Assembly (NCBI RefSeq): GCF_000724545.1
Contig: NZ_JHBV01000141.1
Coordinates: 1 to 47,090 of the forward strand
From: Aureispira sp. CCB-QB1
GTDB lineage: Bacteria > Bacteroidota > Bacteroidia > Chitinophagales > Saprospiraceae
Direction: 5' to 3'
DNA length: 47,090 nucleotides
In this document: in pieces, positions 11,863 through 43,537 of the stretch
Numbering within the stretch: the first letter of the stretch is position 1
How the letters are laid out: each line of letters begins with the position of its first letter
Notes under the pieces: model-generated
The model's database searches: none
Told to the model about the DNA's origin: nothing
The model's input: only the letters and a program-made list of their open reading frames with translations
Program-made: the position numbers and the translations under genes

Positions 11863-11942
11863 ATTATGAGTGTAATTTATTAGGTTTTAGTATTCTATTA
11901 ATCAACACGTATATTGAGATAAAACAACAAAATAATATCTTA

Positions 11943-12656: not shown

Positions 12657-12666
12657 TGTTCTTGAT

Positions 12667-24043: not shown

Positions 24044-24952
24044 TCATATTCCAAAGTTGCCCCCAAAAATGCGTTGCCATTTTAAAATACTTAATTTTCG
24101 ATTTCTCTCAGAATAAGCATCATTAACCCATTCTGCATAAAATTCTACCTTCCTCTTAAAGTTTTGATATTTAATTTCATCCCAGTGCCTATTAAAATTC
24201 TCCATTTCTAAACAAGGATTCATAACAATTGGCATCACCGAGTGAGCTTGCAACCATTCGTTAAGTCGGTTTACAATAGTTTTAAAAGATGTTGGAAAAT
24301 CGCAAAATTCTATAGAAATATCTTCATTTTCTGAAATAAGATTTCCAAGCATTGTATTCAAAAGAATTGACTTTACAGAGAAATTTTGTTTAGAATCTCT
24401 CAAGTACTTCAAAAGCCGAATAGACATAACAAAGTAATTTTTAGGAATTATTGAATTCTTTTCCATTAGCCAATTTGTATATCCAAAAGAATCTGTTCGC
24501 TCGTATTCATTTGTATTTCGATTTAAGATTTGATATTTTTTTCCAAAAAGTCCATTAAATATATCTGTTCTCAACAAAGGAACAATATCTAAATGGAATT
24601 CTCCCGTGTAGTCTAATGTTATACACCTTGATTTTCTACCTACTTTTCTTCTATATACTGGATTTGCTTTAAACAGTGTATAAAGATTTTCTATGTAATC
24701 TCTTGCTTCCCACCCTCGTTCTTCATTCACCCGAATAACAACATCAACATCAAACTCTTTATTCTTCTTAGCTGGTTTAATTATAGTATGATGAGCATAG
24801 GAACCTTGAGGGTACATACCCTTTATTTGAAATGAACTTTTATCTAAAAAATTTTGAACAGCTCCTACATGACGATTCAATCGGTTAATCCTTGTTTTAT
24901 TCAAATTCACATTTGCATGCATGAATTTTTTGAATAGTGCAATACTTTTCAT
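24044..24952 (-). CDS. second CD-NTase-like nucleotidyltransferase of the CBASS operon
   Basis: This 302-aa protein is a pol-beta-type nucleotidyltransferase. The catalytic set is complete: GS at 50-51 (MYPQGSYAHH), the metal-binding pair D68/D70 in EFDVDVVI, and D122 in FHLDIVP. A helical C-terminal half follows, as in CD-NTases. Such enzymes make cyclic di- or trinucleotide signals from NTPs after phage infection; non-cyclising relatives also exist. It is the fourth gene of the operon, 10 bp after the E2-like gene, and differs strongly in sequence from the 414-aa CD-NTase two genes upstream. It may make a second signal, act as a regulator or be the E2 target; none of these can be decided from sequence. 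Confidence 0.78.
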   Translation of the reverse strand: MKSIALFKKFMHANVNLNKTRINRLNRHVGAVQNFLDKSSFQIKGMYPQGSYAHHTIIKPAKKNKEFDVDVVIRVNEERGWEARDYIENLYTLFKANPVYRRKVGRKSRCITLDYTGEFHLDIVPLLRTDIFNGLFGKKYQILNRNTNEYERTDSFGYTNWLMEKNSIIPKNYFVMSIRLLKYLRDSKQNFSVKSILLNTMLGNLISENEDISIEFCDFPTSFKTIVNRLNEWLQAHSVMPIVMNPCLEMENFNRHWDEIKYQNFKRKVEFYAEWVNDAYSERNRKLSILKWQRIFGGNFGI

Positions 24953-24962
24953 TTATATATTG

Positions 24963-25388
24963 TTATTTTGTATTTCGATGAATACCACCTCCATACCATT
25001 TTCCTGTTGCAAGCCACATTTCATAATAATGTAACCAAAGAGATGTCCAAGGAACTATTGTTTTAGCAATAATTTTTTGTGCAGTCCATTCTTCAGAAGG
25101 TGGATAATAAAGACAAAGATTTTTTCCCTTGTAAATATGTGGCGGATTCTTTCCATTTGGAAACAAAAGTTTAGGATGTTTTATAAAAACTTTTGGGACA
25201 CTGTTTTTTTTATACTGAATTTGAACCCTATACTTACCTGATAAAGGATCTGGTTGGATTAAACCTTCCCAGATAAATTTGTCAGGCTTAAGATTGGATT
25301 TTACAGTTTCATACCTCACTTTTAATGCAACTAGTTGTTTTGTAAGGCTTATAGTTCCTTTATCTTTAGTTATTTTACTCCTCCCCAT
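24963..25388 (-). CDS. stand-alone E2-like (ubiquitin-conjugating-fold) CBASS protein
   Basis: This 141-aa protein has the layout of bacterial E2-like proteins of short type II CBASS. An N-terminal helix is followed by strands (FIWEGLIQPDPLSGKYRVQI and VFIKHPKLLFPNG). The candidate active-site Cys is C92 in KNLCLYYP. The C-terminal helix carries the WTSLWLHYYEMWLATGKWYGGG pattern. In known systems this Cys forms a thioester with the C-terminus of the CD-NTase and conjugates it, priming the cyclase. No E1-adenylation or JAB protease gene is present here. The start overlaps the upstream CD-NTase by 14 bp and the next gene follows after 10 bp, so all are co-translated. The assignment is by motif pattern, not by search. 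Confidence 0.7.
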   Translation of the reverse strand: MGRSKITKDKGTISLTKQLVALKVRYETVKSNLKPDKFIWEGLIQPDPLSGKYRVQIQYKKNSVPKVFIKHPKLLFPNGKNPPHIYKGKNLCLYYPPSEEWTAQKIIAKTIVPWTSLWLHYYEMWLATGKWYGGGIHRNTK

Positions 25389-26619
25389 AAAATGTATTTT
25401 TTGGTACTTTTGAGACTTTTTTTATCCCGTCAATTTTTGTGAGAGATGCATTTTTTCCAGATACTCCTAAAAGACCATCTTTTCTATGATTACCAACTCT
25501 TTCATTATGAAATTCTTCTAAAGCTTTATTGATTGTTCTTTCGCCAAAAGATAACTTAAGAGTTTCCCCTATCAGGTGAACGCCTTGCTTGTTAAAAGCT
25601 TTTTCAAGTGTATTTTTAACACTATCTAGCCACTCTCTAAATGCGTATTCTCTCCTTATATCTGATTCCCATTTATCAGCAAAATTTTCAGTTCGATCGG
25701 TAGGGTTTTCTATCCACCGGATGTATTCCCCTTGAGAATTTTTTTTATTCTCAATATGATTTGGCATTTCATCTATAATTGCCTTGGCTATTGTGTATAA
25801 ATCATCATTTACAAAACTCTGGATACTAGCATATGCTTTTGCTGCTAATGTTGTAATGATTATAGAAATTGGTTTTGCTTCTCTTTCTTCTTCTGATTTA
25901 TCTTTATACTCTATATCCCGATGCCGTTTAAGAATTTGTATAACTCTTTGAAGAGGTGTTTTTAATGCATAAGTGGGGACTTCTTCTATTTGACATCCCA
26001 TACTCTTAGCCATCAATTTGACATGATTATTATAGTCAAAGGACTTTTGGAGTTGCATCTGTATTTTGAACCATTCAGCATACCCTTTCGGGTTACTTGT
26101 CATAAATCGTTTATGAACATTATCAGTAATCAAGATAGCGTTTTTTCGAAATGGATTGTCTTCCTGTATAAATACTTCATTTGGAATAGCAGGAAGAATG
26201 TCAAGATGAAATGGAATAGGCTCTTTTCCAGAATATAAAAGAGTCCAACACCTTCGCTTCTCTTCGTCAAGCATATTTTTATACTTTCCATTAGTCTCTA
26301 ACTCATCTCCGACCATTTCTTTTAGCCGAGCCCAGGTTGTGTCATCCTTTGAGCATTCTAAACAACAAACTAAATCTATATCACATCCATCTTCTTCAAA
26401 AATGGGTTTTGTTACGGTTCCAATCAAAAAAGAGCCTTGTGGGTAAATATGTGGAGAGTATTTAGAAAGAGCTGAATCCTTTCGCCCTAGCCACTCTCCA
26501 ACGCTTTTATACCTGTCCTCTGCTGTTTTATAAAGAGACAATGGAATATCAATTTCATCTGAAATTTTTTCTAAAAGTTGTGAGTATTCTTTTGTTTTTT
26601 GATGTTGAGATACAATCAT
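25375..26619 (-). CDS. CBASS CD-NTase (cyclic oligonucleotide synthase)
   Basis: This 414-aa protein is a cGAS/DncV-like nucleotidyltransferase: GS at 62-63 in YPQGSFLIGT, metal ligands D80 and D82 in GCDIDLV, and D140 in PFHLDILPAIP. The helical C-terminal domain includes LQRVIQILKRHRDIEYKD, typical of this family. It would make a cyclic nucleotide that activates the SAVED domain of the neighbouring nuclease. Its C-terminus (KVPKNTFYGEE) is the kind of exposed tail that E2/Cap2 proteins act on, although it does not end in Gly. It lies 27 bp after the HNH-SAVED gene and overlaps the E2-like gene by 14 bp. Confidence 0.87.
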   Translation of the reverse strand: MIVSQHQKTKEYSQLLEKISDEIDIPLSLYKTAEDRYKSVGEWLGRKDSALSKYSPHIYPQGSFLIGTVTKPIFEEDGCDIDLVCCLECSKDDTTWARLKEMVGDELETNGKYKNMLDEEKRRCWTLLYSGKEPIPFHLDILPAIPNEVFIQEDNPFRKNAILITDNVHKRFMTSNPKGYAEWFKIQMQLQKSFDYNNHVKLMAKSMGCQIEEVPTYALKTPLQRVIQILKRHRDIEYKDKSEEEREAKPISIIITTLAAKAYASIQSFVNDDLYTIAKAIIDEMPNHIENKKNSQGEYIRWIENPTDRTENFADKWESDIRREYAFREWLDSVKNTLEKAFNKQGVHLIGETLKLSFGERTINKALEEFHNERVGNHRKDGLLGVSGKNASLTKIDGIKKVSKVPKNTFYGEE

Positions 26620-26646
26620 ATTAAAGTTTTATGTGTGAAAAATATT

Positions 26647-27864
26647 TTACAAAGATGTATAGCAGTCAGGAATCCGAAGAGTTTCAAAGAAACCACTTCT
26701 ATCTCGGTTTTGGTCATAGATGATAATTGGTAGATCTGCTTTAGGCATATAAACTTTTCCAAATTCTATTGCTAGAGCTGCTGGCATTGCTGTGAACAGA
26801 TGCAAAATTACCTCTTCTCCATGTATATGCTTTACCTGATTGAGTAATTGTTTGACTGCTTCTCGAAAGTGCCTAGCTTGATGAGAAGATTTTAGAAAGT
26901 CATTATTACAGTTGGATATACGCAATTCCCAAATACTACTATCACCTCCTAAAACATTGGTTATTCTGTCACTATGAATATCTGCACTGATAGATATTTT
27001 TAAGACAATGTGTTTTCTTGTTGTATCTTTCGGAGGAATAATTTGATACTGATTCTCTTTTGTTTTTGTTCGCCATCCCCAAGAAACCCCTTCTCGGTTT
27101 TTCGGATAAATAGAAGTCTTTTTAATATCCCCTAAAAGTACCCCAAGAAGTATGAGAAGAGGCTGAGGAGCTATAGCGAATACACTTACCTGAGTAATTT
27201 CTTTTTGGGTAACCTTCTCTGCTATTAATCGTTTATACTTCCGTATCAGATTCTGTGAATGATAGTGCCAATAACTTGTTTCAGAATCTCTTGCTTCATC
27301 ATCAGATACAGACAAAATAATAGGCATATCTTCTGCTGGATACACCTCATCTCGTATCATCGCATTTTCTGCCTCTTGCATATTTATTTGAAACAGGCGC
27401 TTACCAATAGGTGCACTATAAAAAATCATAAAAGATTGTTGATCTGTTGTGATACTTGTCAATCTCTTTATCCTTTCTTCATGTTCCTTTTTTATCTTTA
27501 AAAGCCTACTTGCTGGATATTCCTTTTGGGCTTCATTATCAATCATTCTGTGATGAGTATCACAAAGTAACATAAGATTGCTTATATCTTTTGACAACTT
27601 GGGTGAGAGATCCTCATCATATCGATGCGTTTTGTGATTTACATCATAAATATGTGCTACATAAGCAGAGTTGACGTGTTTGTTTGTTAAAAGATCTTGA
27701 TACAAGATTTTATTACAAATATAACAACGCCCTGCTGCTTTTGCCCAGAGTAAGTTGTAAATCTTGTTGGGAATTGTGGGTCTACTACTTTTTTCTTTCT
27801 TTGTTTTTTTTTTCATAGAATTTGTTTCAAGGTATAAAATACTGTAAATCAATTTACATTCCAT
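26647..27864 (-). CDS. cap5: Cap5: HNH endonuclease-SAVED effector of CBASS
   Basis: This 405-aa (or 389-aa) effector is the first gene of the operon. The HNH nuclease spans about 33-115: zinc-like CYIC (47-50), AHIYDVNH (70-77), then NLMLLCDTHHRMID (96-109). The SAVED sensor follows (about 155-405), with LLGVLLGDIKKTSIYP and the ending HLFTAMPAALAIEFGKVY typical of SAVED. In known Cap5 proteins a cyclic nucleotide bound by SAVED triggers oligomerisation and indiscriminate DNA cleavage, killing the infected cell. The ATG at 27816 (residue 17, MKKKTKKEK) is an attractive alternative start; the region before it carries a palindrome (27843-27858). Confidence 0.88.
   Translation of the reverse strand: MECKLIYSILYLETNSMKKKTKKEKSSRPTIPNKIYNLLWAKAAGRCYICNKILYQDLLTNKHVNSAYVAHIYDVNHKTHRYDEDLSPKLSKDISNLMLLCDTHHRMIDNEAQKEYPASRLLKIKKEHEERIKRLTSITTDQQSFMIFYSAPIGKRLFQINMQEAENAMIRDEVYPAEDMPIILSVSDDEARDSETSYWHYHSQNLIRKYKRLIAEKVTQKEITQVSVFAIAPQPLLILLGVLLGDIKKTSIYPKNREGVSWGWRTKTKENQYQIIPPKDTTRKHIVLKISISADIHSDRITNVLGGDSSIWELRISNCNNDFLKSSHQARHFREAVKQLLNQVKHIHGEEVILHLFTAMPAALAIEFGKVYMPKADLPIIIYDQNRDRSGFFETLRIPDCYTSL
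27843..27858. promoter_or_regulatory. palindrome at the CBASS operon start
   Basis: TGTAAAT-CA-ATTTACA is a perfect inverted repeat. It lies between the two possible start codons of the HNH-SAVED gene. If the downstream start (27816) is used, it would sit in the leader and could be an operator. No dedicated CBASS regulator gene lies next to the operon. Confidence 0.35.
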
Positions 27865-29340: not shown

Positions 29341-30360
29341 TTAGTTATTTGAAGCTACCTCAAACTCAAATTGTGAATAATGAGTTAATAAAGTGTCATC
29401 TAAATTCAGTTGATTAATATAGTAATTGGGTATATAAGTTAATATTTCCTGCTTCATCTCTGAGTTATTAACTTGATTCTTAATCAATGGGACAATCGCT
29501 TCCAATAGATAAAACTGTAGCAAATTATTCTGACGACTCATGTTAGGAAGTAAGTCCTCGAATTCTTTTTGCAAAGCATCGGTATTATTTTCAACCCAAT
29601 ATTTTAACACAAAAATGGCATTTTTATACCCTCCTAAGGGGCAATTAGACCAATTGATTGTTGCACAAAGTGGCTGGAATACCTCTTGTACAATCTTTTT
29701 TATTGTTACCCCCTCTAGCTTTATTAAACGATATAAAATGTCCCCTGTAGCATAACTAATGTAATCTATTTCACCTTTTTTTAGCAACCTTGGAGATACA
29801 TTTTCTACAACACCTTTTGTCGGTTGTGCATGTACTAGTGCCAATAAAATACTTTTCGCGTATGAAACCGCGGCTGCTTCGTCTTTGTTAGCACAATGAA
29901 CTCTAAATATATTGATGTATTGCTCCATTTGCCCCCAAATCATATATTCTATTTCATCTTCTTCTACTAAACTACCAGCAGCCTTAATGGAACGAACTAG
30001 AAGGTCAATAGCTTTTTTATAGTTACCTTCACGATATACATGATAAGCAACAGCAGGAAATTTATTGACTTCGACTACTTTCTGAAGTGTATCTTTTTCA
30101 AAAAAAGGAAGTTGCCCAGCCTTGTTTAACCACATTTGTGAAGCATCAAGATTTCCAGTTAGTGCACTTGTAAATGCTTTATTGTAACAAATGTGATAAT
30201 CCGTCAATATCATTTTCTCATCAAATGTTAAAATGGGAGCTAGATGTTCCATACAAGCTTCAAAGACATGCTTATTACCACCTTCTACAAGCTTATTTTT
30301 AGGTCTATTTTGCTGCTCAAAATAATTATCTAGCTGTTCTAAAAACGAAACTTTTTCCAT
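29341..30360 (-). CDS. helical-repeat protein of unknown function in the RiPP operon
   Basis: This 339-aa protein has no signal peptide or membrane segment. It is almost entirely predicted helical, with TPR-like phrases (CYNKAFTSALTGNLDASQMWLNKAG; AVAYHVYREGNYKKAIDLLVRS), which suggests a protein-binding scaffold. It is the last gene of the operon, 24 bp after the HlyD-like gene. It might dock the precursor peptide, the maturase or the exporter, or protect the producer; all of this is inference. No family was recognised with confidence. Confidence 0.62.
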   Translation of the reverse strand: MEKVSFLEQLDNYFEQQNRPKNKLVEGGNKHVFEACMEHLAPILTFDEKMILTDYHICYNKAFTSALTGNLDASQMWLNKAGQLPFFEKDTLQKVVEVNKFPAVAYHVYREGNYKKAIDLLVRSIKAAGSLVEEDEIEYMIWGQMEQYINIFRVHCANKDEAAAVSYAKSILLALVHAQPTKGVVENVSPRLLKKGEIDYISYATGDILYRLIKLEGVTIKKIVQEVFQPLCATINWSNCPLGGYKNAIFVLKYWVENNTDALQKEFEDLLPNMSRQNNLLQFYLLEAIVPLIKNQVNNSEMKQEILTYIPNYYINQLNLDDTLLTHYSQFEFEVASNN

Positions 30361-30384
30361 AATTATGATATCTATATTATAAGT

Positions 30385-30822
30385 TTAAATAGAAAACAAA
30401 CTCCAAATTAGGGACTTACTTTCTTGTTGAATTTTTCCAATTGAGATGTATTGTGTATTTAAAAATGAACGATCAGAAGCTGCAATAAATACCCCTTCCA
30501 ACTCTAATTGTAACTGATCAGCTAACGAGTGTATTTCTTTTATATTAAATTTAGCAGCATGACCATTTTCCAAAACGAGGGTTACTTCTTGATGTTTTTC
30601 CAATACAATATCCGAAGCAAGTATTGTTGCTTTGAAATGGTTGTTAGATGCCATTGGATGTAATTCTACATATACAAAAGAAGGGATTTGAATGGTATAT
30701 AAACTAGTTAGCAAGAATAATATAAGTGCAATAATAAACAGACTACTATAACGCAAAACCCAATGTGGTTTAGGTAATTTGTAATCCATATTACTTGACA
30801 ATCGTTCATTTTGTTCTGACAT
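30385..30822 (-). CDS. very short HlyD-like periplasmic adaptor
   Basis: This 145-aa protein has a cytoplasmic N-terminus, one transmembrane helix at about 24-45 (LRYSSLFIIALILFLLTSLYTI), then a beta-rich domain: PSFVYVELHP, FKATILASDIVLEKHQEVTLVLENG and a closing QYISIGKIQQESKSLIWSLF. This resembles the membrane-proximal barrel of HlyD-family adaptors. It is only about one third of the usual length and lacks the coiled-coil hairpin that reaches an outer-membrane channel. It starts 3 bp after the ABC exporter gene, so it is probably a subunit of that exporter. Confidence 0.65.
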   Translation of the reverse strand: MSEQNERLSSNMDYKLPKPHWVLRYSSLFIIALILFLLTSLYTIQIPSFVYVELHPMASNNHFKATILASDIVLEKHQEVTLVLENGHAAKFNIKEIHSLADQLQLELEGVFIAASDRSFLNTQYISIGKIQQESKSLIWSLFSI

Positions 30823-30825
30823 AAC

Positions 30826-33030
30826 TTAGTTTCCTAGTTCTAATTGATTTTTAACTAAATGTAAATAATGCCCCCCCAGTTTCACCAAATCCTGATGTGT
30901 TCCTTGTTCCACAATTTTTCCTTTGTTCAATACAATAATCTGCTGAGCATTTTTGACAGTACTTAACCTATGCGCAATAACAAAAACCGTCTTATTTTGA
31001 AAAAATTTATTTAAGTTATTCATTATAACATTTTCATTATCTGCATCTAATGCACTAGTTGCTTCATCAAAAAAGAGATACTTAGGGTTTTTATAAATAG
31101 CTCTTGCAATTAGAATACGCTGCTTTTCTCCACCACTTAGCCCACTAGCGTTAGCACCAATTTTGGTCAAAACACCTAAAGGAAGTTTTTCTATATAGCT
31201 GCCTAGGTTTGCCATTTTAATAGCATTCTCTAACTTCAAATCATCAATTTCTAATTCGTTTGTCGCAATATTTCTAGCAATGGTATCAGAAAATATAAAT
31301 CCATCCTGCAAAACAGCACCACAATTCTGACGCCACCACTTGGGAGATAACTCTTTTAATGAACAATCATTAATTTCAATTGTCCCTTCATTTGTTGTGT
31401 AAAATTTTAGCAGTAGCTTTAACAAAGTTGTTTTACCACTGCCACTGGCACCAACAATTGCTGTAACATTTCCTTCAGGTATAAATAAGTTTAAGTTTTG
31501 CAATACTGGTGGTGATTGAGGTCCTTCATAACGAAAAGACAAATCAGTAATTTTAATGCCTTGTTGACTAGGGTTTTTAGGTAAATTCGCTACCTGATGG
31601 GGTTGCTCTTCGTTCTGTTTTTGATGAATTTCATCCAATCGCTCAAGGCTTAGTTGTGTATCTTGTAATGATCTAAAAAAGGTAATCAGTTGTTCAATTG
31701 GGCTATTCATCTGACCAATGATATAAGTGATACTTAACATAGCTCCTAGAGAAATATTCCCTAATATAACTTGCTGTGCAGCAATGAAAGTAACTACGAT
31801 ATTTTTGAATTGATTAATAAAATTATACCCTACTAATTGATATTGGTCAATTCGCAGAATAGCCATATTATTAATAAATAATTTCACCTGTATATCTTCC
31901 CACTGATTCTGCTTATAATCTGCAAAGTTATTGAGCTTTATTTCTTGCATTCCATTGAGAAACTCAAAAATAGAGCTTTGATTTTCAGATCGGTAAGCAA
32001 AACTAGAAAAATCTAACAACCGTCGTTGTTTATGAAAAAGGAATATCCAAAATATGGCTACTAAAGTCAATGATAAGTAGATTAGAATAATCCATACATT
32101 GTAATAAGCTAAAACAGCTAAAAAGACAATAAAATTGATCAAAGAAAAGAATGTAAATAAGCTTTGGGAAGTTAGAAACTCCTCAATTCTATTATGATCT
32201 TCTATTCGTTGCATAAAATCACCGATTTGCTTACTGTCAAAAAAGCTTAAAGGCAATCTAGTTAACTTGTTTAAAAAATTGGCTAAGATCGTGATGTTAG
32301 TTCTTGTGCCAATATGCAATAAAATCCAATTACGAATCACTTCAATTAAAGAAGCACCTAGAAACAAAAAGAGTTGCCCCAACAATATTAAGAATATAAT
32401 ATTCAGGCTTTTAAAAGCAACACCTTTATCAATAAGCAACTGTGTCAAAAAAGGAAAAACAAGTGTCAATAGACTTCCTCCTAGTAAACCTATAAACAGT
32501 TGTATAATATCTACCTTATAACGTTTAAAATAGGTATACAATGTCTGGATTGATTGTTTTCTAGGTCTCAACTTTTCATCTTCCTTATCATAAAAACTAT
32601 CTGTAGGACTTAAAATCAAAGCAATAGCTTTTTCTTTTTCTCCCATCCAATTTTCCTCAAAAATGGACTGCTTTAATGTAATAAGTCCATATCTTGGATC
32701 AGCAATTTTGAAAATATATTGACCTTTCCATGTTTTTTTTATTTGATATAATACCACAAAGTGATTATCATTCCAATGTAATATAGTAGGTACAAAGTTT
32801 TGTTTTATCAATGTACTAGTACTTAACTTAACAGAAAGAGTCTCTATTCCGATCGTTTCAGCAGCTTGAGAGATTCCCAACAAGCTTACTCCATCTTTTG
32901 TTATATAACATTCTTCTCTTAAAAATCCCAAAGAGTACTCTTTGCCCCAAAAACTAGCAATCATCTTAAGGCAAGTTGGACCGCAGTCCATATTGTCAAA
33001 TTGAGGATAAAAAGGGAATGATTTAAACAT
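30826..33030 (-). CDS. C39-peptidase-containing ABC exporter (PCAT) for GG-leader peptides
   Basis: This 734-aa protein has domains in order. The N-terminal C39 cysteine peptidase spans about 1-140, with catalytic Cys-16 in FDNMDCGPTCLKMIA, His in HWNDNHFVVLY and Asp in IADPRYG. The six-helix ABC membrane domain spans about 165-460. The ATPase has Walker A GASGSGKTT, signature LSGGEKQR, Walker B YLFFDEATSALD and switch His in VIAHRLST. PCATs cut leaders after a double Gly and export the core through the inner membrane. Both precursor genes in this cluster encode a GG at exactly such a site. It lies between the maturase (23 bp upstream) and the short HlyD-like gene. Confidence 0.93.
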   Translation of the reverse strand: MFKSFPFYPQFDNMDCGPTCLKMIASFWGKEYSLGFLREECYITKDGVSLLGISQAAETIGIETLSVKLSTSTLIKQNFVPTILHWNDNHFVVLYQIKKTWKGQYIFKIADPRYGLITLKQSIFEENWMGEKEKAIALILSPTDSFYDKEDEKLRPRKQSIQTLYTYFKRYKVDIIQLFIGLLGGSLLTLVFPFLTQLLIDKGVAFKSLNIIFLILLGQLFLFLGASLIEVIRNWILLHIGTRTNITILANFLNKLTRLPLSFFDSKQIGDFMQRIEDHNRIEEFLTSQSLFTFFSLINFIVFLAVLAYYNVWIILIYLSLTLVAIFWIFLFHKQRRLLDFSSFAYRSENQSSIFEFLNGMQEIKLNNFADYKQNQWEDIQVKLFINNMAILRIDQYQLVGYNFINQFKNIVVTFIAAQQVILGNISLGAMLSITYIIGQMNSPIEQLITFFRSLQDTQLSLERLDEIHQKQNEEQPHQVANLPKNPSQQGIKITDLSFRYEGPQSPPVLQNLNLFIPEGNVTAIVGASGSGKTTLLKLLLKFYTTNEGTIEINDCSLKELSPKWWRQNCGAVLQDGFIFSDTIARNIATNELEIDDLKLENAIKMANLGSYIEKLPLGVLTKIGANASGLSGGEKQRILIARAIYKNPKYLFFDEATSALDADNENVIMNNLNKFFQNKTVFVIAHRLSTVKNAQQIIVLNKGKIVEQGTHQDLVKLGGHYLHLVKNQLELGN

Positions 33031-33053
33031 AGAAATATATAATTTATACTCAC

Positions 33054-34421
33054 CTAAGCAGTCTCTGTCAATAATTGAGCAACATTGTTGGTACGATTAG
33101 TTAAGTACTCTAGTACTAAACGATCTTCTATGTTAAATTTAAAAGAAGGACATGCCGGTGTTTTCTCCAACCATTTTTTTGGACAACCACCTCCACAAAC
33201 AGGTAGGAACTTACAACTTTTGCACCATGAATCATTGGTTGGTATACTGCTATTCCAATCTCGCATAGGATCCTTTCTAAATTCAGAAGCATCTTTATCT
33301 AAATGACCATATTGGAAATCACTGCCCTCGTAAACAGGGGTATAAGGAACTTCCCAGCAAGAATAAATATTTCCATAGGCATCAAATACTTCGGATTTTT
33401 CATCAACAACCATACAAACGCTGTGATTCCGTGATGGGATAAAGTTATTGTATGTAAAACCTAATTGAATTACCTCAATCATCCGCTCAATTTCATAAGC
33501 TCCAAACTCTTCTTTAGACATTGAATTCTCAGCTGCCGCATTATCTCCCCAGTCAGTAACTGGCTGAAAGTCAAATGTTATTTTATCCTTCAAACCAAGA
33601 GAGGCCAAATACCAAACTAAATTTCTGATATCTTCTTTATTCCCATTGTTGATATTACATCGAATAACAATAGAACAGCCTTTTTCTTGATAAATAGGAT
33701 GATCTGTAACTCTTACTATGTTCTTTACGATTGTATCAAAAGTATTACCACCTTTTTTAGTGATACGTCTCTGATCATGTTGCGTAGCCGTACCATCTAA
33801 TGTAATTTGGAAATGACTTACATCTAATTCTCCTGCCAATTCTTCAAACACACGAGTTTTTAAACCCAATCCATTAGTAATCATATCAGAAAAATAAGTC
33901 AAACCATGTTTTTGAGCTATTGCTTTCAAACGAGGTGTTAACGTACGTATTTGTTTAAGCGCTAAGATTGGTTCTCCTCCATACCAAGTAATAGAAAGGC
34001 GTTTGTGCCTTGGTTCTATCATAGATTCAATGCGACGTAGCATTTTTTCCTGATGTTCTTCGGACATCGTTTTCTCAGTATGTTCTTGTCCACAATAATC
34101 ACAACCCAATTGACAATTTGCTCCAGGTTGAATAGTGTACCCCAAACTATCATCATTGTCAATTTCAATTTCATTTTCTTCCAAGATAGAAGTTAGCTCG
34201 TCTTCACTGCTACGAACAATCACATGATTAGCTAATAGAGAAGCCATCATTTCCATAGGAACTTTATCAAAATCTCCAGCTACCAATAATTGATAAATAT
34301 TGTCTTTTATAATTAATGCCTTTCCGCTACGGGTTGCATACACCATCCGATTAGGTGTATCAGAAGTCTCATCTAGCAAATCTGTCACTACCAGATAATA
34401 AGATAATTTATAAGCTTTCAT
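33054..34421 (-). CDS. radical SAM/SPASM peptide maturase
   Basis: This 455-aa protein should modify the co-encoded precursors. Residues 1-90 resemble a RiPP recognition-like N-terminal region (MVYATRSGKALIIKDNIYQL). The radical SAM cluster is CxxxCxxC at C103, C107 and C110 (ANCQLGCDYC), with the SAM-binding WYGGEP afterwards. The C-terminal SPASM domain supplies ligands for extra Fe-S clusters: SVCMVVDE, IYSCWEV, WCKSCKFLPVCGGGCPKKW and PACPSF. The family makes thioether, C-C or epimerised products; the type cannot be told here. It resembles the radical SAM maturases that accompany GG-leader precursors in Bacteroidota. Confidence 0.93.
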   Translation of the reverse strand: MKAYKLSYYLVVTDLLDETSDTPNRMVYATRSGKALIIKDNIYQLLVAGDFDKVPMEMMASLLANHVIVRSSEDELTSILEENEIEIDNDDSLGYTIQPGANCQLGCDYCGQEHTEKTMSEEHQEKMLRRIESMIEPRHKRLSITWYGGEPILALKQIRTLTPRLKAIAQKHGLTYFSDMITNGLGLKTRVFEELAGELDVSHFQITLDGTATQHDQRRITKKGGNTFDTIVKNIVRVTDHPIYQEKGCSIVIRCNINNGNKEDIRNLVWYLASLGLKDKITFDFQPVTDWGDNAAAENSMSKEEFGAYEIERMIEVIQLGFTYNNFIPSRNHSVCMVVDEKSEVFDAYGNIYSCWEVPYTPVYEGSDFQYGHLDKDASEFRKDPMRDWNSSIPTNDSWCKSCKFLPVCGGGCPKKWLEKTPACPSFKFNIEDRLVLEYLTNRTNNVAQLLTETA

Positions 34422-34447
34422 GAAAAATGTTTTAAATGTGAGTAGAT

Positions 34448-36832
34448 TTAATTTTTAAGTAAGCGATCTATTGTATTATCGTCAACGGTATTAATGGGTT
34501 CTACCTCTTTTTTTCTTCCCTTACTAAAATTGTATATCAGTGACAATGTAACAGTACGTACATCTCTATTGTGTACTACGGTTCTTTGTTGAGCATTGAA
34601 GTCAACACAATTTTGCTGAAGTCTTGTTCCAAAAAGATCACTGAGGTAAACAGACACTGTTAGTTGGTCTTTCAGAAAGGTTTTACTCAAATTTAAATCC
34701 AAGAAAAACAAATGACCTGCACTATAAATTCCAACAGCATAAGGAGAAGTATAACTAGCTATCGCATCTATCTTCATCCAATTCCATAGGTTAAAACTTT
34801 GATAGAGTCCTAGATAAACATAAACTGTCTTCGTATTGAACGGTTGATTTTGAGCTTCACCACGCGTATAAGCTCCTGCCCCTGCCAAACTAAACGATAT
34901 GTTCCACCAATTAAGTGGTCTAAATTGACCGCTAATATTTAAACCATAATTAGAATTTTGAAAATTAATCCTTCTGAACGTTTCTAAACTTCCATTAAGT
35001 TCTGATACTTGATTGATATAATCGATTACTTCATTATAATAAAGCTGGAAGCTAAAACGTTGCATCAAAAAATACTCTAATGCTACACTGTGCCTAATTT
35101 GGGGTCTTAAGCTAGGGTTTCCTTCAAATTTGGTATATAGACCTGTGTAGTATACATAAGGGCTTCTATCGAAAAACGAAACTCGTTCTATGGACTTATT
35201 ATAAGCTAGTTTAAAAATGTGATCTTGAGAAAGTGTAAATAAGAGTGCTGCCGAAGGAAAATAGTCGAATTGTTCTATATTGGTTTGTAAGTCTTGTCTA
35301 TCAACACCTTTAGTAGTAGCATATTCTCCTCTGAATCCCAATCTCCATTGAAACTTACCAACACTACTTTTCCATTGCAAATAAGCAGCATAAATTCCCT
35401 CGTTATATCTAAACCAATTGCTATTTCCTGTAAATTGAATATTATTGTTCTCAAATGCAATGCTGTAATAAGTATTAATATTCGTGTATTTAGTACCAAA
35501 ATCAACCGTGTTCGATTTATTATTCCAAGTCCAATCTAATTGACCAATCAGTAATCCAGCTTGTGTAGAGTCATTCATTTGGTAATTGAAAACTGAATTT
35601 TGAGCAGGATTATTGGTATTGGATAATTGAAAGCTAAAATCTGAATTATTGCTTGGCGTTATATAAAGATAACTTACCGCACTAGCTATGGTCCAATATT
35701 TTCCAAATTGACCGTTGTAAGATAATTGTGCTTGGAAATTATTACCTATTGATTTAAATGTTGTTGTGTTATTCAATGTAGAATCAATGTCTACAGCTTC
35801 TACGGTAGAAGAGAATACATCTTCTTGATTGGTACTATTCTTAGGAGCGTTGAAATGCGAATACTCTCCAGAAAGTGTGATGTTGTGTTTGGGATTAAAA
35901 CTCCATCCTAGATTTAAGTTTGTACTTATATTATGTTCTTCTGATTCTTGTTTAAGTTCTGATATTGAGTAATAAAAAGGTTGAGTTGCTTCAAACCTCC
36001 TATCTGCAATAGATACAGAGCGGATTTTATTATAACTATAGTCTACACTTAACTGTGCTGTAAACTTCTTTTTATTAAAGTTAATTAAACTACCCACATC
36101 AAAACGTGGGTAAATACCCTGAGTATATTTTGTATAAACATTTCCTTGAATACCTTCCATACTTCCTTTTTTCAAAATAATGTTTAGTACTGCACCTACA
36201 TTAGCATCATACTCGGCAGAAGGGTTAGATATGATTTCTATGGATTCTATAATGTTAGGGGGAATATTTTCTAGTTTTAAATTTGTCCTTTTTCCATTAA
36301 TTAAAATTAACACGTTACTTTTTCCCGCTATTGAGAGAGCGTCTCCTACTTGTGATACATTAGGTGCTAATTCTAGAAGAGTAGATAAAGAAGGAAGGGT
36401 TCCTAAGGATGTTCCTTCTATATTCATTATCGTTTTGTCTATATCATATTCCAACAAGGGTTTTATACTATCTGCAGTTACAATAGCAATATCTGTTTCA
36501 TATACCGTATACGTTAATACAATATCTCCTAGATTATATATTTGTGTATCACCATTTTTGATAACTAGGCTATCCGATTGGTACATATCAAAACCTAACC
36601 CTCCTTCTACTCGAATCTGATAACTACCTGCTTCAATAGCCTCAAACGTAAAAATGCCTTCATCGGAAGGAAAAACTTGTGCTTTCAAATTTTCATTAGA
36701 AAGATTGTATAAAGAGACTAAGGCAAAATTTATCGGTTCGACCTCTTCTGTCACCAGTCTTCCCTTGATAGTTTGCCCCAAACAACAATAAGACAAAAAA
36801 AGGACTATAGTAGAAGTAAAAAACCTGAGCAT
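34448..36832 (-). CDS. outer-membrane beta-barrel protein (TonB-receptor-like) of the RiPP cluster
   Basis: This 794-aa protein has a signal peptide at about 1-19 (TSTIVLFLSYCCLGQ) and a carboxypeptidase-regulatory-like beta domain at about 20-105. A plug-like domain follows at about 130-225, with IAGKSNVLILINGKRTN and IESIEIISNPSAEYDANVGA. A large barrel with aromatic girdle strands ends in VTLSLIYNFSKG. No TonB box is evident. The operon lacks a TolC-like channel, so this barrel could be the route of the mature peptide across the outer membrane, or a receptor for it. It lies 26 bp before the maturase gene and downstream of a strong hairpin behind the second precursor gene. Confidence 0.85.
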   Translation of the reverse strand: MLRFFTSTIVLFLSYCCLGQTIKGRLVTEEVEPINFALVSLYNLSNENLKAQVFPSDEGIFTFEAIEAGSYQIRVEGGLGFDMYQSDSLVIKNGDTQIYNLGDIVLTYTVYETDIAIVTADSIKPLLEYDIDKTIMNIEGTSLGTLPSLSTLLELAPNVSQVGDALSIAGKSNVLILINGKRTNLKLENIPPNIIESIEIISNPSAEYDANVGAVLNIILKKGSMEGIQGNVYTKYTQGIYPRFDVGSLINFNKKKFTAQLSVDYSYNKIRSVSIADRRFEATQPFYYSISELKQESEEHNISTNLNLGWSFNPKHNITLSGEYSHFNAPKNSTNQEDVFSSTVEAVDIDSTLNNTTTFKSIGNNFQAQLSYNGQFGKYWTIASAVSYLYITPSNNSDFSFQLSNTNNPAQNSVFNYQMNDSTQAGLLIGQLDWTWNNKSNTVDFGTKYTNINTYYSIAFENNNIQFTGNSNWFRYNEGIYAAYLQWKSSVGKFQWRLGFRGEYATTKGVDRQDLQTNIEQFDYFPSAALLFTLSQDHIFKLAYNKSIERVSFFDRSPYVYYTGLYTKFEGNPSLRPQIRHSVALEYFLMQRFSFQLYYNEVIDYINQVSELNGSLETFRRINFQNSNYGLNISGQFRPLNWWNISFSLAGAGAYTRGEAQNQPFNTKTVYVYLGLYQSFNLWNWMKIDAIASYTSPYAVGIYSAGHLFFLDLNLSKTFLKDQLTVSVYLSDLFGTRLQQNCVDFNAQQRTVVHNRDVRTVTLSLIYNFSKGRKKEVEPINTVDDNTIDRLLKN

Positions 36833-37315
36833 TGCTTAATTATTATTTTGTGTGATCAAATAAATTGGGTTGGTGAATTAGTAACTGATCTATTGCTATT
36901 AATTTATTTTGATTTTGTATAAAAAGTTATACCTCTGATTCTAAAAGGGAATAAGTTTGCTGTTGAACTTCGATTTTGAAATTAAATGTTTTTAGCGTTT
37001 GTTTTATTGGGGCTTAAGCAATTCAAATTTGTAGAACACTATCATCAATTCAAAAATCTGGTTTGACTGAATAGCCTTAAGGTTTACCGCCCCTATTATG
37101 TTATTATTTTTCAGATACTTATAAAGAAACATTACTATCCAATTGAAGCATCTTTATTCACAAAGCCTTGTTTAGTTTTAGAATATTTTGGTATAATTAT
37201 TTCAAAACATGAAAAAAAATGCAACATAAAATCTCAAAACCTGTATATCATATTATAATTTATTATATTTTACATAGTTTATAATTTTCATGTATTAACT
37301 ATAAAGTATTTAAAA
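36833..37315. other. gene-free stretch between the second precursor gene and the barrel gene
   Basis: There are 483 bp without a supported gene and no further GG-leader ORF on either strand. It probably holds a leader or secondary promoter for the barrel-maturase-exporter part of the operon; no clear TAnnTTTG promoter with a correctly spaced TTTG was found. Confidence 0.4.
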
Positions 37316-37354
37316 GCAAGTGTAATGCTTATAGTAATAAGCATACACACTTGC
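37316..37354 (-). terminator. strong hairpin behind the second precursor gene (attenuator/partial terminator)
   Basis: On the minus strand GCAAGTGT-gt-ATGCTTAT-tact-ATAAGCAT-t-ACACTTGC folds into a stem of 16 pairs with a small internal asymmetry, followed by TTTTAAA. It starts 38 bp after the precursor stop codon. Such hairpins between a precursor and its processing genes usually let only a fraction of transcripts continue, giving an excess of precursor. Confidence 0.65.
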
Positions 37355-37392
37355 CCCTTAGTTAGTTTTTTACCAAAAACTATAGATCTAAA

Positions 37393-37554
37393 TTACTTTA
37401 TAGGAGTGAATTTAGGTGGTTCTGAATAAGTACCACATTTAAAGCTATTGCAATATCCTTTAACACCACCTTTTACAGTTTCTGGATTGATAATTTCTAA
37501 ATCATTGCTTATTGACAATGTTGCCAATGCTTTTTTTAAATTAGAGTTTTTCAT
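37393..37554 (-). CDS. GG-leader RiPP precursor peptide 2 (53 aa)
   Basis: This short gene was found by reading the minus strand. The 30-aa leader begins MKNSNLKKALATLSISND and ends NPETVKGG, a double-Gly site matching the C39 exporter. The 23-aa core starts VKGYCNSFKCGTYSEPP and ends KFTPIK. It has two Cys separated by four residues (CNSFKC). The leader is nearly identical to that of the first precursor, while the core is more diverged except for CNSF-K/R-C and TYS-x-PP. That is the pattern expected for paralogous precursors modified by one maturase. It lies between two hairpins in the RiPP operon. Confidence 0.88.
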   Translation of the reverse strand: MKNSNLKKALATLSISNDLEIINPETVKGGVKGYCNSFKCGTYSEPPKFTPIK

Positions 37555-37718
37555 GATTTCAAAAATTTTATTTTTAAATAATTATTAGCATAATGTATAA
37601 TTACCTTGTTTAATACAGGCTATTTATATTTCTTATTACCATAAACGAAAACTTGTTTTGTAACAAAAAATAAAGTCCTTCAACAGTAAGAACTATACAC
37701 TTAATATCAACGATTTGA

Positions 37719-37760
37719 GAATAAGCGCAATCCTTTTAGCAGCAAGTATTGCACTTATTC
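37719..37760 (-). promoter_or_regulatory. hairpin between the two precursor genes
   Basis: GAATAAG-c-GCAAT (37719-37731) pairs with ATTGC-a-CTTATTC (37748-37760) across a 16-nt loop. It lies 22 bp after the first precursor's stop codon. No U-tract follows, so it is more likely an mRNA-stabilising or processing element than a terminator. Confidence 0.45.
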
Positions 37761-37781
37761 ATCAGATAGTTTTATCAAAAA

Positions 37782-37949
37782 CTATACTTTAGGACTCAAT
37801 CCAGCTTTTAGAGTAGGTGGCTTAGAGTAAGTACGACATCTGAAGCTATTACAGCCTACTCCGCCTTTTACTGTTTCTGGGTTAATAACCTCGATTTCTT
37901 CGTTGATTGACAAAGATGCCAATGCTTTTTTCAAATTAGAGTTTTTCAT
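37782..37949 (-). CDS. GG-leader RiPP precursor peptide 1 (55 aa)
   Basis: This is the first gene of the RiPP operon and too short for many gene callers. The 30-aa leader begins MKNSNLKKALASLSINEE and ends NPETVKGG; cleavage after GG by the C39 exporter would free a 25-aa core. The core starts VGCNSFRCRTYSKPP and ends LKAGLSPKV. It shares the CNSF-K/R-C pair and the TYS-x-PP block with the second precursor, so those are the likely modification targets of the radical SAM enzyme. The core is basic. Predicted product: a modified peptide, perhaps a bacteriocin or signal; function unknown. Confidence 0.88.
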   Translation of the reverse strand: MKNSNLKKALASLSINEEIEVINPETVKGGVGCNSFRCRTYSKPPTLKAGLSPKV

Positions 37950-38206
37950 GATAATAAATTTGTTAAAAAAAAATAAAAATTAAATGCATGCATATTTTTA
38001 CACATAGTTATTCTTATACAGTTTAAAAAACTGTTCTTTCTGATCCGATTTAGTAGATAAATAAACCCTTTTCGATTTGTGTAGAGAGACCTGTTAAAAA
38101 ATGTTAGGCTATACGCTATGTAATTAAGAAGAGAATAAGGCTCTCTAACAATTCTGTAAAGGCATACTATTTGAACTTTTTTGCAGAATTGCTGTTTGAA
38201 TAGCAA

Positions 38207-38302
38207 ATTGTTAATTTATAAATTAACAATACCCCATAGCTGGTGATTAAAAATTTATATAGAATTAGTAAACTCAAAATTTTCTTGTCAAAGTGACAAG
38301 AA
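38207..38302. promoter_or_regulatory. two palindromes upstream of the RiPP operon
   Basis: A perfect 24-bp palindrome (arms ATTGTTAATTTA/TAAATTAACAAT, 38207-38230) and a 9-bp-arm inverted repeat TTCTTGTCA-AAG-TGACAAGAA (38282-38302) lie 258-353 bp before the first precursor start. They are candidate regulator sites. No regulator gene lies within the cluster and no clean promoter was recognised. Confidence 0.4.
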
Positions 38303-39140
38303 TTGTCAATCAACCAATAATAATTTTATGAGGATTACTTACTTAGAAAGGTTTTTCGAATAAAATTAGATATTCGATGTTGCTGTAGAAGTTTGTTTCA
38401 TGTAAATTGGGTAATTTTTTTGTTTGGGAATATTTTTTTGTAGGTGTTTGCAAAACAAATATGAATATTTTTTTTATAAAAAACAATACAAAACAATTAT
38501 TTGTAATAAGTCTAATTCTAATTTATAAATCACTGTAAACATAGCTCAATACACATTTAGTATTATACAAAAAATTCACCTACAAAACACCAACACCCCC
38601 AACTGTCACATAATCAAATATTAACACATAAAATAAAAATACTTAAAAAGTATTAGAGCAAATATATTATATATAATGCTATTCTTTCACGGATGCTAAT
38701 ATGGTCGAAATAGGTATAAAAATGGCTCGACTTTAAAAAAATATTATATAAACTTTAACTCTTTTAAATCAAGAACTTAGATCTATCACCTAAACCAAGT
38801 ACACCTAATTCAAACCGCTAAATAAACTTAGCAATGTAAGGATTGATTAAGGCGTTTTTAAAATTTGAGAGCTTGTGCCATAACTACATTTACAATTATA
38901 CTGATATACTAGTTTGGGCTTAGTCAACGACTAGACACACTCCTCTCTAGAAAAGATAAAAGAGTCTGTCTATATTGCCTTTGTAGCATTCAAAAGCAAT
39001 TATTAGAGTAGAGATAGACTTCAATCATTTTCTTTTCGCCCTCCCTCTTACCTACGCTATTATCCGATTACAACTCTTTTTTCGAGGGCTATTTTGCTAT
39101 TTCACATTCCCACCATATTTTTAATCAAAACAACGATGAT
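38303..39140. other. gene-free region between the RiPP operon and the ardC relic
   Basis: About 840 bp of AT-rich sequence with no supported ORF, RNA gene or tandem repeat. It may carry distal regulatory sequence for the RiPP operon or be decayed DNA, as the neighbouring ardC relic suggests. Confidence 0.4.
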
Positions 39141-40851: not shown

Positions 40852-42168
40852 TTACCTCATTAAATCAGGATGATATTTTTTTAGGTATAAATCAAAGTTT
40901 GCCTCTTCCTCGGTTAAATACTTTTCTGCTAAAAAATCATTAACCCAAGCATCTAGCATTTTACTATTCTCGTTGTTTTGGATGCTTGTTTGTACCATTT
41001 GATAAAAAGGAGTGCTTTTCTTTTCATCTAAAATTTTCTCTAATAAAGATTCGTCTAAATACTTTACTTTTAGTTCTCCTAATTTAACAGTATAGGCTTT
41101 ATAAAAACCAGTTTTAATTGTATTGTATTGGTTTTCCCTTTCTAATCTTAAACGCTCTCTCTCTTTCCTCTTTTTTTCTTGTTCAATTTTTCTATCGTCT
41201 TCTACAATTTCACTGTTGTAATATCCTTTATTGATTGCATTTAAAAGATAACCTGCTTTATTATTCACACTTCCTTTGTTCTTATTAAAATGCTTTTGAC
41301 ACTTCTCGAATGTTGCTTGAATATGTTTCAAAGCATGTGCCTTAAATAAAGCGTCTAAGACTTTGTCATCCTTTATGCCTTCCTCTCTTAATTTATTCTT
41401 CCAATCGTCTTCCTCATCTATAACAGATGACACCTCAGCTAAACTTGTTTCCTGTTTCGTTGAGCTACTTTCTTTATCTATATTTTTGTGAATAAAAAAT
41501 TTGATCTTCTCTACTGAACGGACTTTTTTTATTTCTTCATAAGTAAAGCTAATGTCAGTATATTTCTCTAAATCTTTTTGAGCTTTCTTAATAATCCGTT
41601 GTTTAAAATTAGCATATAACGGATATTTTTCTGATACCTGTAAAATATCTTTTAGTTCTTCTACTAAAAAGGTTCTGAACCCAATTTTCTCATACTGCTT
41701 CAATAACTCATAAATACGAACAGAATGTACACTCGAAATCTTGAGAATATTTCGAATATCATACATCAAAAACTGGGACTTAAGTTGTAACAAAAAAGGC
41801 TTCATATTAGGATGAAAAGAAACATCAATAAAGCTCTTGCCAGCGACTAACGTCTCTAAACCAATAATAACAGGCGTTTCTAGCACTTTCTCTCCTTCAT
41901 CTGTATTGTAAGTGATTTTCACAATACGACGCATCAAACGACGTGCTCCATCTTTGAGACGTTTATAAGCATCTTTATTTTTACTTAGTTGAAAATCGTC
42001 TTGAATTTCTTTGATATAAATCCGATAGGTTTTAAAATCCTCATCATCTTTGTTGATTAAAGTAATCATCTTGGCAAATACACGAGTTTCCCAAATGTCA
42101 AATTTGTATCTACTCTCAACTAACTCATTTGCCTTTTTTATTAGTTTGTTGGAATCTTTAGAAGCCAT
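40852..42168 (-). CDS. plasmid replication initiator, Rep_3 (RepB) family
   Basis: This 438-aa protein has two winged-helix modules, as in Rep_3 initiators. The first (about 5-125) contains LVESRYKFDIWETRVFAKMI and YKRLKDGARRLMRRIVKI. The second (about 140-235) contains FLLQLKSQFLMYDIRNILKI and SVRIYELLKQYEKIG, then QRIIKKAQKDLEKYTDISF. A charged, coiled-coil-rich extension (about 270-438) is longer than in many relatives. It would bind the iterons just upstream as a monomer, open the origin and repress itself as a dimer. A TATATTTG -7-like element lies at 42195-42202. Confidence 0.92.
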   Translation of the reverse strand: MASKDSNKLIKKANELVESRYKFDIWETRVFAKMITLINKDDEDFKTYRIYIKEIQDDFQLSKNKDAYKRLKDGARRLMRRIVKITYNTDEGEKVLETPVIIGLETLVAGKSFIDVSFHPNMKPFLLQLKSQFLMYDIRNILKISSVHSVRIYELLKQYEKIGFRTFLVEELKDILQVSEKYPLYANFKQRIIKKAQKDLEKYTDISFTYEEIKKVRSVEKIKFFIHKNIDKESSSTKQETSLAEVSSVIDEEDDWKNKLREEGIKDDKVLDALFKAHALKHIQATFEKCQKHFNKNKGSVNNKAGYLLNAINKGYYNSEIVEDDRKIEQEKKRKERERLRLERENQYNTIKTGFYKAYTVKLGELKVKYLDESLLEKILDEKKSTPFYQMVQTSIQNNENSKMLDAWVNDFLAEKYLTEEEANFDLYLKKYHPDLMR

Positions 42169-42892: not shown

Positions 42893-43537
42893 TTAGTTTA
42901 AGCTTTTTATAATTTCTTTTAATTCATTGAAAACATTCAAGATTTCAGATTTTGCTTTTCGATCTTTATATTCATAAACGCCTAACCCCTGTATCACTGC
43001 CTCTCGATAAGCTACTCGACTTTTGAGAGTACTTTTTAGAGGTTTAATCGACCAGTCTTGTAAAATGTCATTCACTTCTCTATCGAGAATTTGATTTTTA
43101 TCGTATTGATTGAGCACAAAGAAAGCCGGAATCTCTTCTCCTTTCAAGGTTTGGGCATCATCATAACGATTAATAAATTTCTCTGTAGCCCAAACATCTA
43201 AACCTCCTGGTAAAATTGGAGTTAAAACAATATCGCCCAACAAAATAATTTTACTAGTTAATTGGGATAGAGATGGTGTTCCATCAATAATGACTACTTC
43301 ATAATCCCGATGCAATGGTTGAATATTTTTTGTTAGAGTTTTACCGTCAGGTAAACCAAAGACAGGAACTTCTGGGTAGTCTTCTGATCTTAAGCCAGAC
43401 CATTGTAGAGAACTTTGGTTTTCATCAGTATCAACTAAACATACTTTGTAGTTGTTATGAGCAAAGCAAACAGCGAGATTTTGAGCAATCGTAGATTTTC
43501 CAACGCCTCCTTTCAAACTTGTTACAGATATAATCAT
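42893..43537 (-). CDS. parA: ParA-family plasmid partition ATPase
   Basis: This 214-aa protein is of type Ib (short ParA) length. It has the deviant Walker A KGGVGKST (9-16) with the signature Lys-9, Walker A' in LVDTDENQSS (34-43) and Walker B in VVIIDGTPS (81-89). It starts directly with the ATPase and has no N-terminal HTH, so regulation is left to the small partner. It moves plasmid copies over the nucleoid by ATP-dependent DNA binding. It is followed after 6 bp by the RHH gene and preceded by a perfect inverted repeat at 43577-43596. Confidence 0.94.
   Translation of the reverse strand: MIISVTSLKGGVGKSTIAQNLAVCFAHNNYKVCLVDTDENQSSLQWSGLRSEDYPEVPVFGLPDGKTLTKNIQPLHRDYEVVIIDGTPSLSQLTSKIILLGDIVLTPILPGGLDVWATEKFINRYDDAQTLKGEEIPAFFVLNQYDKNQILDREVNDILQDWSIKPLKSTLKSRVAYREAVIQGLGVYEYKDRKAKSEILNVFNELKEIIKSLN

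Follow-up and report, generated by a model that had tools for sequence, protein, structure and literature searches.

A GG-leader radical SAM peptide cluster of Aureispira with a clade-specific core cysteine pattern and a recurrent TPR partner

Among the closest described systems is BGC2 of a Bacteroidales survey, for which the accessible text lists a radical SAM enzyme, a C39 exporter, a membrane-fusion protein (MFP), an outer-membrane protein (OMP) and a tetratricopeptide repeat (TPR) gene (PMC10352776). In the accessible part of another report, graspetide loci are described as accompanied by PF14905 and TPR proteins (PMC8939145). Here we analyse a seven-gene minus-strand cluster in a 47,090-nucleotide contig of Aureispira sp. 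CCB-QB1 (NZ_JHBV01000141.1; the whole stretch is called the window), comprising two precursor peptides, a plugged outer-membrane barrel, a maturase, an exporter, an adaptor-like protein and a TPR-like protein. Since the BGC2 layout and the presence of PF14905 and TPR proteins at graspetide loci are in print, as far as these texts are accessible, this kind of cluster is already known. The proposal of an uncharacterised modified peptide family, made in a first-pass annotation of the DNA, is thus narrowed with respect to the layout, while a core rule specific for one maturase clade is added to it here.

Assignment of the locus as a GG-leader radical SAM cluster for ribosomally synthesized and post-translationally modified peptides (RiPPs) is supported by the short GG precursors and the adjoining CxxxCxxC SPASM maturase and C39 exporter. 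All seven open reading frames (ORFs) are open, at positions 29341-37949, and the first-pass annotation was correct as to the arrangement, the 53- and 55-codon precursors and the radical SAM/SPASM nature of the enzyme, which both profiles and alignment confirm. The maturase (455 amino acids (aa); 33054-34421, minus strand) has a predicted N-terminus similar to a RiPP recognition element (RRE), and contains CxxxCxxC plus seven further cysteines invariant among 34 aligned maturases. Its best NCBIfam match was TIGR04463, with 228 bits, yet below the equivalog cut-off of 525; the Cys-every-fifth model gave 172.5 bits, PapB (NF047865) 89.1 bits against a cut-off of 340, and the GG-Bacteroidales maturase TIGR04148 44.5 bits against 300. 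No paper naming the TIGR04463 accession was found in the literature searched, and none on the window's maturase clade, most subscription journals lying outside the reach of that search.

The cluster is not a chance assembly, because an uncultured Aureispira metagenome-assembled genome (MAG; G006, L039/L065) retains the entire set, in the same order and with two orthologous precursors. Among 60 genomes searched, the window's own included, a close ortholog was present only in this MAG (maturase 95% identical), and weak matches (23-26% identity) occurred in three further genomes. Between the window and the MAG, dN/dS was 0.08 for the maturase and exporter, 0.12 for the barrel and 0.17-0.18 for the adaptor and TPR protein. 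The full gene set is also present, with a single precursor, in G724 (L056), which belongs to the same family but to another genus; the leader of this precursor closely resembles those of the window, and its core, GCGTKTVNCGTKTTC, is different and contains three cysteines. As the sequences show, the precursors, maturase, exporter, adaptor-like protein, barrel and TPR-like protein stay together in three genomes. No convincing third precursor copy was found in the window's genome, the third match (E 0.72) containing a stop, and a scan of viral contigs for relatives returned 20 loci with identity of at most 32%.

Precursor B (55 aa; 37782-37949, minus strand; ortholog L039:2148-2309) consists of a 30-aa leader ending in VKGG, the core VGCNSFRCRTYSKPP and a variable tail; precursor A (53 aa; 37393-37554, minus strand; ortholog L039:2616-2789) has a leader of the same type, the core VKGYCNSFKCGTYSEPP and a variable tail. 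Both leaders end with NPETVKGG at residue 30 and are 80% identical over 30 aa; the VKGG ending had been recognised correctly, and calling them near-identical was slightly too strong. The segments following the leaders, of 23 and 25 aa, share CNSF[K/R]C and TYS[E/K]PP, as the first-pass annotation had observed. The ortholog pairs of the window and the MAG are 87% and 90% identical (dN/dS 0.28 and 0.17). In neither pair does the core differ up to and including PP: the differences fall in leader and tail, and indels are confined to the tail after PP. As a family-wide motif expected beside similar maturases, CNSF-K/R-C was rejected, being present only in two Aureispira genomes among the precursors listed, with C-x-x-[LFYN] recurring instead. 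Because F or Y occupies position +3 of all four cysteines in the two window cores, these are better read as a C-x-x-[F/Y] unit occurring twice in tandem, first as CNSF and then as CRTY or CGTY. In a profile search the precursors did not exceed the cut-off of any precursor family: the SbtA precursor model TIGR04081 gave 19.7 and 18.1 bits against 30.5, in alignments limited to the initial 15-16 residues of the leader, and no match to TIGR04149 (GG-Bacteroidales precursor) was listed for them at E up to 1.

Relatives of the maturase were sought in genome contigs by means of an alignment of 14 rows. Of the 177 related loci, the best 80 (58 from Bacteroidota, 12 from Cyanobacteriota, 10 from Pseudomonadota; several end at a contig edge) form the basis of the tree and of all neighbour counts, the latter covering 6 kb around the maturase and depending on a phmmer or profile match, so that distant relatives can be missed. 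The maximum-likelihood tree placed the window in a supported clade of 37 rows (100/99), separate from the 45 remaining rows. Precursor candidates were chosen blind to cysteine in 82 loci (L065-L144, L056 and L059), the criteria being strand, the position of GG and the absence of overlap; 58 loci yielded at least one. Upstream of related maturases, two or more core cysteines were found in 88/111 same-strand candidates versus 7/30 on the opposite strand, and 97 of the 111 leaders were free of cysteine; the lack of cysteine conservation in homologous precursors that would have refuted the first-pass proposal is therefore not seen. Across 61 non-redundant cores, Y or F stood at +3 of 36/193 cysteines (z +9.2), N at -3 of 56/182 (z +8.5) and N at +3 of 42/193 (z +5.2).

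These signals separate by clade, as counted without L071, L106 and L121 (not precursor-like) and L059 (absent from the tree). In the window's clade F or Y is found at +3 of 35/125 cysteines (z +10.6) and N-x-x-C in 2/37 cores, whereas in the sister clade N precedes 52/60 cysteines at -3 (z +14.9), N-x-x-C occurs in 18/20 cores and C-x-x-[FY] in none. L, F, Y or N at +3 accounts for 86/125 cysteines of the window's clade, with a maximum of 42 over 500 shuffles; with one core per locus, it is 61/91 (shuffle mean 20, maximum 32). In a leave-one-subclade-out test, from which the Aureispira cores were additionally withheld to keep the window as a test case, position +3 was chosen 10/10 times and 57/123 held-out positions matched, versus 22.5 expected. 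Four of ten subclades were clear on their own and six were not, L056, L066 and L131 together giving 0/8. The nearest precursor from another genus, that of G724 (L056), does not fit Cys-to-(i+3) thioether rings, having Lys at +3 of Cys in a C-x6-C-x5-C arrangement with CGTK repeats. The C-x-x-bulky pattern appears to be a counterpart, not yet studied, of a known ring-site rule.

Two other features of related loci were noted. A gene similar to 2OG-Fe(II) oxygenases recurs (L059:12452-13459, L094, L095, L101, L113 and L140; by phmmer, with Pfam for L059 only), hinting at an extra hydroxylation step in some of these clusters. In four cyanobacterial loci (L106, L112, L124, L125), clade-B maturases lie beside cysteine-containing proteins of 112-121 aa that by eye begin with what looks like a Sec signal peptide and not a GG leader.

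The TPR-like protein (339 aa; 29341-30360, minus strand) is all-helical, with no signal peptide seen by eye; neither it nor the 145-aa adaptor-like protein had a profile match over the cut-off. Foldseek with its model gave no match at E up to 0.001, and the top matches of its profile in PDB sequences, consensus TPRs of designed proteins aligned along some 20 positions, are uninformative on function. The helical-repeat protein noticed at first pass is thus present, and the role left blank there can be amended to that of a recurrent neighbour of this maturase group: relatives occur near the maturase in 36/80 loci (31/58 in Bacteroidota, 5/22 in others), in 30/36 cases at a distance of 200 nt or less. 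As they adjoin the maturase even in some loci devoid of the barrel or of the C39 exporter, a role in maturation fits better than one in export. A TPR partner and a PF14905-like barrel were also seen in a GG-precursor cluster with a lantibiotic dehydratase (L186:5814-16386), a stretch in which no radical SAM relative was found. Associated with radical SAM maturases and once with a lantibiotic dehydratase, this partner may be a general RiPP helper.

As to export, Pfam bears out the earlier calls of both the exporter and the barrel. The former (734 aa; 30826-33030, minus strand) is a C39 peptidase-ABC protein (PCAT) with Peptidase_C39 (101.9 bits), ABC_membrane and ABC_tran, and a C39 exporter lies near the maturase in 45/58 Bacteroidota loci and 5/22 others. 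The barrel (794 aa; 34448-36832, minus strand; signal peptide by eye) matches OMP_b-brl_3 (PF14905) and Plug over the cut-offs, and CarboxypepD_reg at 27.3 bits, under the cut-off of 32.3; a like barrel was found in 41/58 Bacteroidota loci and 0/22 others. None of the seven proteins matched PF02321 (TolC-type), in accordance with the absence of a TolC-like channel asserted before. A channel might be borrowed, since 12 PF02321 matches lie on 6 contigs elsewhere in the genome. The earlier phrase 'a barrel in place of TolC' stands as to a recurrent barrel; the substitution itself is conjectural, export and uptake being inseparable here.

The gene directly after the exporter (30385-30822, minus strand) encodes an adaptor-like protein, or mini MFP, with P-x-W-x-x-R preceding a single transmembrane (TM) segment and a short C-terminal part. 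At 145 aa, it is by its predicted size too short for a lipoyl/alpha-hairpin part. Its only model was NF045999 (25.4 bits, under the cut-off of 35), tblastn against plasmid records gave no match, and its profile matched proteins 3' of C39 genes elsewhere with 90% probability over only 41 columns, TM segment included. Longer proteins in this place match only the C-terminal HlyD part; one of 241 aa (L094) covers only HlyD positions 300-411 of 422, which indicates that such adaptors are devoid of the hairpin part. The cluster departs from tripartite type I secretion (HlyD/TolC) in having neither an HlyD match in the 145-aa protein nor PF02321. In another genome of the species (G702, L187:2255-16121) two other C39 genes are each followed by a gene of 421 or 423 aa, the first of which, when scanned, was HlyD; small GG-type ORFs, one with DNGDSDH-type repeats, lie by them. 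A full-length HlyD gene thus accompanies another C39 gene at least once in the species. The short adaptor and plugged barrel raise the question of peptide passage through the Bacteroidota outer membrane.

A pathway that would accommodate these data, and to which we give an even chance, leads to two small crosslinked peptides. The RRE-like N-terminus of the maturase would bind the leader, and the TPR protein would assist in recognising the precursor in the cytosol or keeping it in place there. The maturase would then remove a hydrogen from the residue at +3 of every Cys and bond that residue to the sulfur of this Cys. Each peptide would carry two such thioether rings, Cys-Asn-Ser-Phe and Cys-(Arg/Gly)-Thr-Tyr, and its tail beyond PP would be free to vary. 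During export the C39 domain would cleave after VKGG, so that 23- and 25-residue cores would be released, and the mini adaptor and plugged barrel may complete, or participate in, passage through the outer membrane. The product would probably be a strain-specific, plasmid-borne competition or signalling peptide. A broader proposal seems rather unlikely in its entirety, namely that the window's clade represents undescribed thioether synthases linking Cys to an unactivated aromatic or aliphatic +3 residue (C-x-x-[F/Y/L/N]), mirroring N-x-x-C beta-thioether synthases of the sister clade, with a dedicated cytosolic TPR partner and TolC-independent Bacteroidota export through C39, hairpin-less adaptor and plugged barrel. 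If C-x-x-[LFYN] does mark ring sites, one maturase family would contain two groups with opposite linkage directions, Asn before Cys in the sister clade and a bulky residue after Cys in the window's clade; direction and acceptor choice could then be tested by comparison of homologs.

The core motif and the N-x-x-C rule of the sister clade point to ranthipeptide linkages, of Cys sulfur to a non-alpha carbon. A SPASM domain with seven invariant cysteines suits sactipeptide and ranthipeptide synthases alike, and Phe is a sactipeptide acceptor in subtilosin; Cys-to-alpha-carbon thioethers with pairs not confined to i+3, nested or in a hairpin, might thus be considered. We find them unlikely, as a long-range hairpin would not require the in-clade residue class at +3 to be tied to Cys, and N-x-x-C of the sister clade is a beta-thioether site in NxxcA, according to its accessible description. 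The aromatic or hydrophobic +3 residue could also undergo a radical step without sulfur (cyclophane formation, epimerisation or hydroxylation), leaving two cysteines to form a disulfide. Regular spacing makes this improbable, neighbouring cysteines lying 4-6 residues apart in 134/205 pairs; moreover, 23/111 candidates have exactly three core cysteines, one of which a disulfide would leave unpaired, and the top maturase models (C_rich at 228 bits, Cys-every-fifth and PapB) are named for Cys-rich or Cys-linked peptides.

Alternatives also concern the accessory proteins. That the TPR protein senses peptides as a regulator of RRNPP type, instead of helping in maturation, is rather unlikely: no DNA-binding domain over the cut-off was found in it, and its relatives lie close to maturase genes. 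As to the TPR fold plus HTH or Rap-type output domain of such regulators, its fold is similar at a common level and it has a weak RapH_N match (E 0.48). The barrel, in turn, resembles TonB-dependent importers in combining PF14905 with Plug, and the product contains Cys, so that a metal-binding peptide re-imported through an uptake receptor, and not a bacteriocin or signal, might be envisaged. This has a low probability in our view, given that the seven genes gave no match to TonB/ExbBD, to a metal regulator or to an importer, that the search of the 22 non-Bacteroidota loci revealed no barrel, and that a like barrel belongs to the lantibiotic dehydratase cluster mentioned above.

The source strain is a marine bacterium, and the contig studied is probably a plasmid. 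It carries a Rep3 replication initiator (40852-42168, by Pfam), a ParA-like gene (42893-43537, by eye) and a resolvase; in another genome (G003), which also has a 7.6-Mb contig, Rep3 homologs were located on contigs of 122 and 87 kb. The plasmid assignment relies on these genes, because no terminal overlap proving circularity was found. A two-contig genome of the same species lacks the cluster; nothing beyond partial matches to the exporter was found in it (65-68%, and 79% for one match over 57 bases). Near the RiPP cluster lies an operon resembling cyclic-oligonucleotide-based antiphage signalling systems (CBASS; 24044-27864). By Pfam, it encodes an HNH-SAVED effector and a pair of SMODS/DncV-like nucleotidyltransferases, whose genes flank one for a 141-aa protein. 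The stretch 3874-20247 holds two very long ORFs, of 2662 and 2526 aa, the second starting RHS/YD-repeat-like by eye. A stable RNA hairpin is predicted 3' of each of the four Aureispira precursors (z from -4.4 to -7.0), in the window on the minus strand at 37718-37760 after precursor B (ends approximate; region 37690-37780, z -4.95) and, a strong one, at 37312-37358 after precursor A (region 37312-37390, z -7.0); the G724 precursor has no such stable hairpin (z -1.3). We do not call them terminators, since a terminator scan of 36700-38600 listed neither. A Bacteroidota-type promoter pattern gave 152 window matches versus 156 by chance, hence no promoter is claimed, and a scan for sigma-70 promoters in 36700-38600 was likewise at chance level, with 11 matches versus 12.7.

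Compared with known systems, the cluster resembles BGC2 in combining a GG leader and a radical SAM maturase with a C39 exporter, a membrane-fusion protein, an OMP and a TPR gene, although that survey concerns Bacteroidales and the comparison is by description only (PMC10352776). Colicin V type export employs a C39 ABC protein, an MFP and TolC, according to the accessible text of the same survey; in the window an adaptor-like gene likewise follows the C39 exporter, but its 145 aa leave no room for a hairpin, and the cluster has a plugged barrel and no TolC-type gene. With NxxC ranthipeptides of Streptococcus (NxxcA/NxxcB) the window shares two residues between Cys and its presumed partner, and the sister clade of its maturase has N-x-x-C cores; as far as the accessible description of NxxcB allows a comparison, the window differs in that the partner, F or Y, would follow Cys and that export is of GG/C39 type. 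PapB/freyrasin ranthipeptides (C-x3-D) have the acceptor downstream of Cys, as presumed for the window, and a repeated motif, and lose 2 Da per link, whereas their spacing is one residue longer, their acceptor is acidic and the window maturase scores far below the PapB cut-off (PMC9413430, accessible part). The C-x-x-[LFYN] core rule and the hairpin-less adaptor are features of the window that the accessible description of BGC2 does not mention, and the additions to the known systems are a core rule tied to one maturase clade and the recurrence of the TPR partner.
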